This document shows positions 60,610-64,000 of a stretch of 64,000 nt of DNA, in pieces (position 1 is the stretch's first letter; every line of letters starts with the position of its first letter). Under the pieces are notes generated by a model. It had not been told where the DNA came from. It worked only from the letters and a program-made list of their open reading frames with translations, and made no database searches. The position numbers and the translations under genes were made by a program. This DNA comes from Ilumatobacteraceae bacterium (GTDB lineage: Bacteria > Actinomycetota > Acidimicrobiia > Acidimicrobiales > Ilumatobacteraceae): assembly GCA_024644465.1 (NCBI GenBank), contig JAHEKY010000002.1, positions 25,774 to 89,773 of the forward strand, read 5' to 3'.

Positions 60610-62115
60610 TCAGTGCCGAAAGTGGCGCTGCCCGGTGAACACCATGACGAGGCCGTGCTCGTCGGCCGCCGCGATCACCTCGTCGTCGCGCACCGATCCG
60701 CCCGGCTGGATGACCGCCGCCACGCCCGCCGCGGCCGCCGCGTCGAGGCCGTCACGGAACGGGAAGAACGCATCGCTCGCACAAGCGCCACCGACCGCAC
60801 GACCCGCCGCGCGCTCGGCGGCGATCCGTGCGGAGTCGAGCCGGTTCTGCTGGCCGGCGCCGATGCCGAACGCCTGGAGGTCCCGCGCGTAGACGATCGC
60901 GTTGCTCGTCACCGCGGCGCACACCGCCCACGCGAACTCGAGGTCGCGCCACTGGTCGTCGGTCGGCTGCAGCTGAGTCGCGACACGCCAGTCGTCAGTG
61001 CGGCCGGCGACCGGATCGGGCTGCTGGACGAGCAGCCCACCGTCGATCGGCTTGAGATCGAACGGCAGCGGCGACGGCGCATTCGCCGCGATCACGCGCA
61101 GGTTCTTCTTCGCCGCGAACGTCTCGAGCGCGTCATCCTCGAAGCCGGGCGCGACGACGACCTCGGTGAACACATCACCCAGGGCGATCGCCATCTCGTT
61201 GGTGACCGTGCGGTTCGCCGCGACGACCCCGCCGAACGCGCTGACCGGGTCGCACGCGTGCGCCAGCCGATACGCGGAGGCGATGTCGTCCGCCACGGCC
61301 ACTCCGCACGGGTTGGCGTGCTTGACGACGACGCACGCCGGCGCGTCGAAGCGGTGGACGAGTCGCCACGCCGCCTCGGTGTCGTACAGGTTGAGGTAGC
61401 TGAGCCCCTTGCCGCCGTGCTGCGTCATCGAGTCCCACCAACTCGTCGCCCCGGTCTGGCGGTAGCGCGCGCCCTGCTGGTGCGGGTTCTCGCCGTACCG
61501 CAGCGACTGGACGTTCGTCAGGGCGAGGTGGATCGACTCGGGCAGCGCGTCGGCAGCGTCCGGCTCGGTCTCGTCGAACCACGTGACGATTGCCGCGTCG
61601 TACGCGGCGGTGTGCGCGAACGCGGCGCGGGCGAGAACACGTCGCGTCGACTCGCTCAGCGCGCCGTCCGCTCGGAGTTCGTCGACGATGTCGGTGTAGC
61701 GCTCGGGTTCGACGACGACGCCGACATGCGCGTGGTTCTTCGCAGCGGCGCGCACCATCGCCGGGCCGCCGATGTCGATCAACTCGATGCCGGGATCCGA
61801 CGCGAACGGGTAGAGGTTGCCGACGACGAGGTCGATCGGCGTGATGCCGTACTCGTCCATGTCGGCGACGTGGCCCGCGTCGGTCGGGTCGGCGAGGATC
61901 CCGCCGTGCACCTTGGGGTGCAGGGTGACGACGCGGTGACCGAGGATCGCCGGCACGCCGGTCAGTTCGGCGACGTCGGTGACGTCGATGCCGGCGGCCG
62001 CGATCGCCTGGGCGGTGCCGCCGCTCGACACCAGCGTCCAGCCGAGTTCACGGAGGGAGCGGGCGAAGTCGACCACTCCCGACTTGTCGTACACGGACAG
62101 CAGGGCGGTGGGCAC
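60610..62115 (-). CDS. purH: Bifunctional AICAR formyltransferase/IMP cyclohydrolase
   Basis: PTALLSVYDKSGVVDFARSLRELGWTLVSSGGTAQAI...LRYGENPHQQGARY...VVVKHANPCGVAV...DAFFPFRDGLDAAAAAGVAAVIQPGGSVRDDEVIAAADEHGLVMVFTGQRHFRH. Confidence 0.97.
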   Translation of the reverse strand: MPTALLSVYDKSGVVDFARSLRELGWTLVSSGGTAQAIAAAGIDVTDVAELTGVPAILGHRVVTLHPKVHGGILADPTDAGHVADMDEYGITPIDLVVGNLYPFASDPGIELIDIGGPAMVRAAAKNHAHVGVVVEPERYTDIVDELRADGALSESTRRVLARAAFAHTAAYDAAIVTWFDETEPDAADALPESIHLALTNVQSLRYGENPHQQGARYRQTGATSWWDSMTQHGGKGLSYLNLYDTEAAWRLVHRFDAPACVVVKHANPCGVAVADDIASAYRLAHACDPVSAFGGVVAANRTVTNEMAIALGDVFTEVVVAPGFEDDALETFAAKKNLRVIAANAPSPLPFDLKPIDGGLLVQQPDPVAGRTDDWRVATQLQPTDDQWRDLEFAWAVCAAVTSNAIVYARDLQAFGIGAGQQNRLDSARIAAERAAGRAVGGACASDAFFPFRDGLDAAAAAGVAAVIQPGGSVRDDEVIAAADEHGLVMVFTGQRHFRH

Positions 62116-62210
62116 AGGGTGATCGTAGACACCACGACGTCGCGCGACCGCGACCGCCGAATCGAAGATCACCGAGACGGGTCGCGAGAAGATGTACGTT
62201 GGAAGTGCTC

Positions 62211-62750
62211 ATGACCGCCGTCACGAGTACTTCATCAGGAGGGAATCGAACAGTGGACTTCAGCAAGATCAAGACATCGGACTGGATGATGATCGGCGGC
62301 GGCGCCGCCATGCTCATCCTCGGCTTCGCATTGGATTGGACGACAATCGACACCGTCGTCGGCAGCGCCGGCGGCGACGGTCCGTTCAACTACTTCTTCA
62401 CCGGCGGGATCGCCTGGCTCCTCGTCGTCGCGACCGGTGTGCTCGCATTCCTGCGGGCAACGGGCAAACTCCCCGAGACGCAGCCGTGGACGCTGATCTT
62501 CCTCGCCGCGACCGGCCTCGCCACGCTGCTGATGCTGCTGCGCGTCATCCTCGGCGCGCGCTACGAATTCGCGGATCGCGGCATCGGGATGTACGGCGCA
62601 CTCATCTGGGCCGCGATCGCGCTCGCCGGTGCGTTCATGAGCTTCCAGGCGTCCGGTGGCGAACTCTCCGATCTGACCGACATGGAAAAGATCAAGGGGA
62701 GCTTCAGCGACAAGCCCGGCGACACACCCCCGCCGCCCCCCGCCACCTGA
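62211..62750 (+). CDS. Hypothetical membrane protein (4 TM)
   Basis: MTAVTSTSSGGNRTVDFSKIKTSDWMMIGGGAAMLILGFALDW...WLLVVATGVLAFLRA...LIFLAATGLATLLMLLRVILG...YGALIWAAIALAGAFMSF. Confidence 0.75.
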   Translation: MTAVTSTSSGGNRTVDFSKIKTSDWMMIGGGAAMLILGFALDWTTIDTVVGSAGGDGPFNYFFTGGIAWLLVVATGVLAFLRATGKLPETQPWTLIFLAATGLATLLMLLRVILGARYEFADRGIGMYGALIWAAIALAGAFMSFQASGGELSDLTDMEKIKGSFSDKPGDTPPPPPAT

Positions 62751-62769
62751 CCCCCACCCGCCTTTCCCA

Positions 62770-62820
62770 CGAACGCGTGAGGTAGGTGCGCTCCATGTGC
62801 GCAACAACCTCACGCGTTCG
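62770..62820. repeat. Palindromic element family 2, copy 1
   Basis: CGAACGCGTGAGGT-(aggtgcgctccatgtgcgcaaca)-ACCTCACGCGTTCG; 14-bp perfect arms, inner TGCGC/GCGCA pairing. Confidence 0.9.
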
Positions 62821-62922
62821 GTGTTGGGGGTGGGGGCAGGCGTTCGACCGGTAGCGTTCGACGTCGCGTCACCTCGATCGGACCCTCTGGGTCCCCAGTG
62901 TCCCCTCACCCTGGGAGGCCAG

Positions 62923-63858
62923 ATGCCGCACCTCACGGCACGCGTCGCGGCCTGCGCTGCTCGCCAGCACGGCGTCGTCACGACGAACGACTTGATCGAG
63001 GCGGGCTACGGCCGCCACACGATCCGCCGGCTCATCACGGATGGAGCGCTGATCCGCCTGCACCGCGACACACTTCGCGTCGCGACAGCGCCAGACACGT
63101 TCGAATCGAGATGCACCGCCGCGTCGCTCGCCGAACCTTCCGCGATCGTCACCGGCGCGGCCGCCGCCCGGCTGTGGGCGTTCCGTCACGTCGCCAGCGT
63201 CGACGTCCCGATCGTGCTCGTCGAGCACAGTCGTCACCCCCTCGCGCGCAACGTCGTGATCCGGAGATCGAACCAGATCACCGAAGCCGATCGCATCGAG
63301 CGTCCCGACGGCATCCGCGTCGCCAGCCCACCGCGGGCGTGGTTCGACTGTGCACGCGACTCCAGCGATCGCCGCTTCGAGATGCTCACCGAGTGGGTGA
63401 TCGACAACCATTCCGGCGTACCACCGTTGTGGGAGATGCTCCGACGCCTGGAACAACGGGGGCGGCCGGGTCTCGCGCGCGTCCGGCGCGTGCTGTCGCA
63501 GCGGGCGGTCTGGCAGCGTCCTGCCGGTTCCGGCCTCGAGCTGCGTGTCCTCAAGGCGCTGCAGCGTGCCGGAGTCCCCGAACTGAGACGGCAGTTCCCG
63601 ATCGAGCTGCAGGACCGATCGATCATCCACCCCGACGGCGCGCTCCCCGCGATCAGGTGGGCGGTCGAGATCGACCACGTGACGTGGCACGGCGGCCGGT
63701 TCGACGCGCAGTACGACAAGTCACGCGACCGGCAACTCCGTCGCGTCTCCTGGCAGGTCGACCGCGTGACCGACCAGGAACTCCGTGAGGACTTCGACGG
63801 CGCCATCTCCGACCTGGTCGGTCTTTACGAACTCCGGTGCCGGGAGGTCGCCGCGTGA
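62923..63858 (+). CDS. AbiEi-antitoxin-type HTH N-terminal domain with DUF559 (Vsr-fold nuclease-like) C-terminus
   Basis: ACAARQHGVVTTNDLIEAGYGRHTIRRLITDGALIRLHRDTLRVA (AbiEi-type wHTH); WAVEIDHVTWHGGRFDAQYDKSRDRQLRRVSWQVDRVTDQELREDF (DUF559 pattern). Confidence 0.75.
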   Translation: MPHLTARVAACAARQHGVVTTNDLIEAGYGRHTIRRLITDGALIRLHRDTLRVATAPDTFESRCTAASLAEPSAIVTGAAAARLWAFRHVASVDVPIVLVEHSRHPLARNVVIRRSNQITEADRIERPDGIRVASPPRAWFDCARDSSDRRFEMLTEWVIDNHSGVPPLWEMLRRLEQRGRPGLARVRRVLSQRAVWQRPAGSGLELRVLKALQRAGVPELRRQFPIELQDRSIIHPDGALPAIRWAVEIDHVTWHGGRFDAQYDKSRDRQLRRVSWQVDRVTDQELREDFDGAISDLVGLYELRCREVAA

Positions 63859-63883
63859 CGATCTCACCCCCGCCATTTTCCCA

Positions 63884-63934
63884 CGAACGCGTGAGGTTGT
63901 TGCGCACATGGAGCGCACCTACCTCACGCGTTGG
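63884..63934. repeat. Palindromic element family 2, copy 2 (loop reverse-complemented)
   Basis: CGAACGCGTGAGGT-(tgttgcgcacatggagcgcacct)-ACCTCACGCGTTGG; loop is the exact reverse complement of copy 1. Confidence 0.9.
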
Positions 63935-63963
63935 TGGTCACGCGTTGGGGGTGCTGATCTGGG

Positions 63964-64000
63964 TCAGCCGGCGACGATGTCCGCCATCAGCTCGCCGGCC
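63964..64000 (-). CDS. C-terminal end of an unidentified CDS, cut by window edge
   Basis: Minus strand ...AGELMADIVAG* ; too short to identify. Confidence 0.35.
   Translation of the reverse strand, partial: AGELMADIVAG

Follow-up and report, generated by a model that had tools for sequence, protein, structure and literature searches.

A single gene near the right end of the window (the whole 64,000-nucleotide stretch of DNA that was analysed) lies between two copies of a palindromic element whose centres are inverted relative to each other. Is this gene a dedicated partner of the palindromes, and what might its product do to them? The features of the locus are the following:

60610-62172, minus strand: purH, conserved neighbour that served to locate filled and empty sites
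62253-62750, plus strand: small membrane-protein gene, the left neighbour, outside the cassette; it marks the filled or empty site (tblastn to congeners)
62763-62769, plus strand: left flank TTTCCCAC, direct repeat D1, in the same orientation at 63877-63883
62767-62820, no strand: upstream palindrome copy, outer arms 62770-62783/62807-62820 and core 62784-62806 (inverted-repeat and core searches, dispersed copies)
62923-63858, plus strand: enclosed gene, 311 aa, with an AbiEi_4 winged helix (aa 7-48) and a predicted C-terminal MTES_1575/DUF559-type (Vsr-like) nuclease (aa ~203-298) (Pfam, PADLOC, PDB profiles, alignment of 21 homologues)
63884-63937, no strand: downstream palindrome copy, core exactly inverted with respect to the upstream copy (inverted-repeat and core searches)

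The preliminary description claimed an element pair around one gene, and the inverted-repeat and core searches show that this pair is real. Its members are near-palindromes of ~54 bp, one on either side of the gene, and form a 54-nt inverted pair with 98% complementarity and a spacing of 1063 nt. The 23-nt core AGGTGCGCTCCATGTGCGCAACA occurs once per strand, at 62784-62806 on the plus strand and exactly at 63898-63920 on the minus strand, confirming that the loops are reverse complements; no further site is found in the window at up to 3 mismatches, and 0 are expected by shuffling. The left flank TTTCCCAC and the right flank TTGGGGGTG keep the same orientation at both copies, as had been claimed. 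The common arms were described correctly in that ACGCGTGAGGT is perfect at the four arm positions of the two copies, the only places where it occurs in the window, but the right arm of the second copy ends with CGCGTTGG and not with CGCGTTCG. Similarly, the sequence and inversion of the 23-nt "loop" hold, but within this segment lies an inner stem, TGCGC/GCGCA, with a loop of 6-7 nt, and each element is therefore an imperfect double hairpin. Chance palindromes are ruled out by the arm and core searches. No T-tract is found 3' of the element stem in the window sequence, and an Rfam scan of the window revealed no RNA families.

The enclosed gene starts at ATG 62923 by homology; a longer ORF from GTG 62797 starts within the palindrome. 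Its product had been described as a DNA-binding HTH combined with a Vsr-fold nuclease-like domain, a prediction with which Pfam and the PDB profiles agree. Pfam assigns AbiEi_4 to the 311-aa protein (E 9e-11), and MTES_1575 (E 1.3e-5) and DUF559 (E 0.036) to its C-terminus, the latter two below Pfam cut-offs. PF01797, the HUH Y1 tyrosine transposase family, is absent from the Pfam results. PADLOC AbiEi models match the protein, and the protein-family profile matches the DUF559-like endonuclease 3hrl (E 6e-4) and the mobile-intron endonuclease 3r3p (E 4e-3) in the PDB, with weak matches to AbiEi/AbiGi. Residues S203, E206, D238, E249, H256 and D265 of the nuclease region are invariant in the alignment of 21 homologues. 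The profile matches and the conserved catalytic-type residues predict a nuclease of the Vsr/DUF559 superfamily. AlphaFold run on a two-sequence alignment modelled the winged helix alone (about residues 1-60; mean pLDDT 41.8). The window protein gave no match in NCBIfam or in the plasmid collection, no relatives in the viral contigs searched and just two weak partial matches in the phage collection. The N-terminal AbiEi_4 winged helix is shared with the AbiEi antitoxin of AbiE type IV toxin-antitoxin systems; unlike in AbiE, the C-terminal nuclease replaces the AbiEi C-terminal domain and no AbiEii toxin gene is adjacent, the neighbours being the membrane-protein gene and sucD/sucC. A toxin-antitoxin pair is rejected in the absence of the toxin neighbour.

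Bracketing by shared repeats is widespread in the gene family. A profile from 21 homologues was run on 81 genomes sampled across Actinomycetota and matched in 26 of them, with up to 17 matches in one genome (G131). A matched upstream/downstream repeat is present at 30 of 56 homologues but at none of the 194 control genes taken from the homologues' own regions (250-bp flanks, local repeat score at least 16; Fisher p=1.2e-23), the 56 homologues coming from about 20 genomes and thus not being fully independent. At this threshold matched flanks are missing from about half of the homologues phylum-wide; within the genus, a score of at least 16 is reached by 16 of the 20 measurable homologues. The shared repeats start at a median of 8.5 bp past the stop codon and end at a median of 112 bp before the gene start, and 16 of the 30 are significantly palindromic. 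Their two ends are direct in 19 cases, inverted in 9, as in the window, and tied in 2.

Repeats of different cassettes are rarely similar (0.5-1.9% of pairs), and similarity is most frequent where the proteins are closest (5 of 12 cross-genome pairs at 50-70% identity). Judged from these similarities, repeat and protein co-vary and the repeats are gene-specific. A search of twelve palindromes in nine genomes gives a near-perfect diagonal, each palindrome matching its own genome, with dispersed copies in 7 of the 9. Distinct copies among the matches listed number 29 in G028, 10 in G076, 9 in G069 and 8 (of one repeat) in G093, in addition to the arrays of a paralogue's repeat described at the end of this text; the sole off-diagonal match listed is a G007-type copy in G000, which belongs to the same genus. 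The tested repeat of G061 and G131 is found at the cassette only. Several of the 17 homologue matches of G131 (L164-L172) show a strong hairpin at just one of their two sides, and loss or decay of the partner palindrome copy may be common.

The window's own draft genome (G000) contains 24 exact-arm matches to the element, which represent 23 distinct copies because contig C177 overlaps the end of the window's contig; the reversed element pattern has 0 matches there. The element is not confined to genes of this family: 21 of the 23 copies are solitary, a majority expected of REP-like repeats. A looser pattern finds 24 matches in G000, 22 in G001, 3 in G002 and 0-2 in each of eight further congeners, the genomes compared being mostly draft assemblies. 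G000, G001 and G002 are exactly those genomes with a 60-100% identical gene, and element abundance follows gene presence in the genus. The association of element and DUF559/AbiEi gene that the preliminary description proposed is strongly supported by this co-occurrence. Records carrying the element elsewhere are titled Ilumatobacter, Ilumatobacteraceae or Acidimicrobiia. The G001 orthologue has palindromes on both sides, and the gene of MAG 3_bin.6 (62% identical) is bracketed as well, the dispersed copies in that genome carrying their own variant. Likewise, the upstream palindrome of G002 deviates in the same way as the dispersed copies of G002, and the inner-stem triplets show compensatory changes between species. 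The arm type of the window element was not found near the homologues in G003, G004 and G005 (with related solitary palindromes).

We consider it reasonably likely that the locus is a REP-RAYT-like unit in which the enzyme is an AbiEi-type DNA-binding domain joined to a Vsr/DUF559-superfamily nuclease and not a tyrosine transposase. Alternatively, the winged helix could bind the flanking palindrome for autoregulation, the dispersed copies being a regulon or genome-marking sites and the nuclease serving defence or repair. AbiEi-type domains are DNA-binding antitoxin domains known to bind inverted repeats; the PADLOC AbiEi match fits such a regulator, and co-variation of element and protein is predicted for a binding site too. 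The recent proposal of a mismatch-repair role for the Caulobacter DUF559 protein VsrA (PMC12907096) keeps the housekeeping version alive. The position of the repeats argues against this reading, since an operator needs no second copy right past the stop codon. The dispersed copies are mostly intergenic, and about half of the non-overlapping solitary ones sit where two convergent genes meet at their 3' ends rather than upstream of a gene, by approximate gene calls in which four copies overlap a called ORF. Entire elements are also present or absent at orthologous sites. Seven of the eight solitary sites compared are common to G000 and G001, which indicates slow turnover, and one (in L052) has clean empty sites in G001, G002, G007, G008 and G010. 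At the corresponding places examined in the other congeners the element was not seen, and unrelated hairpins occur at some of them. The dispersed copies may function as binding sites instead of being mobile products, but a purely regulatory system appears rather unlikely.

A REP-RAYT-like unit must also be distinguished from a classical mobile element, IS-like or a homing cassette, whose palindromic ends would move with the gene as a block. The element-gene-element architecture of about 1.2 kb and the similarity to the intron homing nuclease 3r3p are compatible with this possibility, and so is the presence or absence of the cassette between purH and sucD. The window contig, C86, ends just past the second palindrome, and the overlapping end of C177 runs on into sucD/sucC. 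The order in G000 and G001 is purH, membrane gene, element-gene-element and sucD; in MAG 3_bin.6 purH and sucD stand on either side of the cassette, and in G002 the cassette adjoins purH and the contig ends after it. Empty sites at purH are found in G004, G005 and G010, with purH, the membrane gene and sucD consecutive, and in G007 and G008, which have purH and sucD and lack the cassette; no palindrome was seen at the latter two. The proposed comparison of relatives has therefore yielded empty sites both for the cassette (five congeners) and for one solitary element. The cassette stands beside the same gene, purH, in four species, and the gene thus looks stationary while, from the filled and empty sites compared, the palindromes come and go. 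The window-type gene has one close copy per genome, its other homologues in the same genome being 27-35% identical, and the orientation of the ends varies family-wide. Movement as a block is improbable, and a classical insertion sequence is rejected for a stationary, single-copy gene without near-identical copies of the whole unit.

The convergent gap before sucD at the empty sites of G004, G010 and G005 (L233, L236, L241) holds a solitary palindrome that is built alike but has different arms, which suggests a hot spot or a terminator role at the gap between the membrane gene and sucD. That the palindromes are in general ordinary bidirectional terminators lying near these genes by accident is highly improbable and is rejected: these three congeners and the solitary copies between convergent genes speak for it, but control genes have no matched flanks, one element lies upstream of the gene, the T-tract is absent, copy number tracks the gene and the sequences are specific to gene and genome. 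The preliminary description had named, as what would refute it, elements scattered as terminators with neither association to the gene nor empty-site polymorphism; the elements do associate with the gene, and the polymorphism exists.

Another observation at this locus concerns the overlap of C86 and C177 (window 63880-64000, L064), which differ slightly (CATTTTCCCACG versus CCTTTTTCCACG) in what looks like a strain mixture.

How close is the REP-RAYT-like unit to known systems? Bracketing, dispersal, co-specificity and presence/absence are established, and the link of the element with the nuclease gene is upheld by co-occurrence in the genus, the purH cassettes of four species, gene-specific bracketing versus controls and genome-specific dispersal. 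By analogy, the unit has most of the features that define REP/RAYT units (Nunvar 2010, PMC2817692) and appears to work like one: a stationary single gene lies between two copies of a genome-dispersed palindrome, repeat and protein co-vary, repeat abundance follows the gene and many copies lie at gene 3' ends. It differs in the enzyme, an AbiEi-type winged helix with a Vsr/DUF559-like nuclease in place of an HUH Y1 transposase (PF01797), in the absence of the GTAG head and in elements that are often longer (45-65 bp), with two nested stems and direct or inverted ends. The likeness to REP-RAYT with a different enzyme, already noted in the preliminary description, extends to bracketing, dispersal and co-variation. 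The ends are inverted in the window and of mixed orientation family-wide; with an unrelated enzyme and no fixed end orientation this is not a RAYT system. Short dispersed palindromes at gene 3' ends in species-specific families are also typical of CGTC REPs and untagged families (Di Nocera 2013, PMC3733652). The CGTC REPs are said to have no dedicated transposase and these families were reported without a dedicated enzyme, while a cognate gene is identified here for other palindromes; counts of REP-like repeats without a named enzyme have also been published for M. tuberculosis and D. radiodurans (PMC1525189). The protein resembles the Vsr/DUF559/EDxHD nucleases (3hrl; 3r3p; Caulobacter VsrA, PMC12907096) in its conserved E/D/H residues and profile similarity to 3hrl and 3r3p, and differs from them in its fusion to an AbiEi-type winged helix, its cognate dispersed palindrome and the absence of a methyltransferase or intron context at the locus. 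No paper linking palindromes or repeats to either DUF559 or AbiEi was found in a search that left out most subscription-journal papers and bioRxiv preprints, and an earlier description may exist.

The nuclease probably binds and nicks its own palindrome and would help it to spread. The winged helix would recognise the cognate palindrome, and the nuclease would nick or cut this palindrome in duplex, cruciform or hairpin form at the replication fork. New copies at other sites would arise when the nicked palindrome is repaired or copied. Such processing may also invert the core in place, as may simple recombination between the arms. Of the cores at the seven orthologous solitary sites of G000 and G001, four fit better when flipped and three fit better without flipping. 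The margins are 1-4 mismatches and the halves of the element have diverged between the two species, so that this recurrence of inverted cores within conserved flanks beyond the window is suggestive only. Recombination of the arms or copying of the hairpin could invert the core whether or not the nuclease takes part, ordinary arm recombination being an equally good source.

Small stand-alone DUF559 proteins (about 100-180 aa) were found from the 3hrl sequence in Proteobacteria and Deinococcus, the hosts being Azospirillum, Sinorhizobium, Shinella, sphingomonads, Methylobacterium, Photobacterium and Deinococcus. A C/G-rich palindrome lies within about 260 bp of the gene at 12 of 12 loci versus 0.66 expected from the regions' own density; the C/G-rich motif class was picked after eight of the 12 loci had been seen, and the four later loci are positive too, one of them (A. 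brasilense L359) being a near-duplicate of an earlier locus. The association outside Actinomycetota is a strong lead, short of proof. The origin and upkeep of dispersed palindromes are obscure in most bacteria outside RAYT-linked repeats, and one large class is said to have no transposase of its own (PMC3733652). A gene family whose products are predicted to bind and cut DNA, and whose members are matched to palindromes of their own, is a testable candidate in several phyla. It points to an overlooked partnership of gene and repeat through which small DNA repeats may spread and, if true, would assign a role to many unexplained AbiEi/DUF559 genes, which reach the numbers seen in G131. Vsr/DUF559-superfamily nucleases, with or without the AbiEi-type winged helix, might supply the dedicated partner that has been missing for many REP-like palindromes beyond the RAYT world (Actinomycetota, Alphaproteobacteria, Deinococcota), forming a second, independently evolved palindrome-mobilising class that nicks instead of using HUH chemistry; we give this tentative generalisation slightly less than an even chance.

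A search of the plasmid collection with a distant homologue as query retrieved bracketed genes of Tsukamurella. Two DUF559 genes of T. tyrosinosolvens (L342, L343) each lie tightly between copies of their own ~55-64 bp palindrome, in records whose "plasmid" labels look doubtful because core genes, among them purB and purD, are present on them. The window's own genome has a 35% identical paralogue (C39:9540-10439; L085, L123) with another palindrome family, GCGATGACG...CGTCATCGC. Four copies of this palindrome form a tandem array with ~60-bp spacing downstream of the paralogue, and further small arrays of the repeat are found on contigs C178 and C181.
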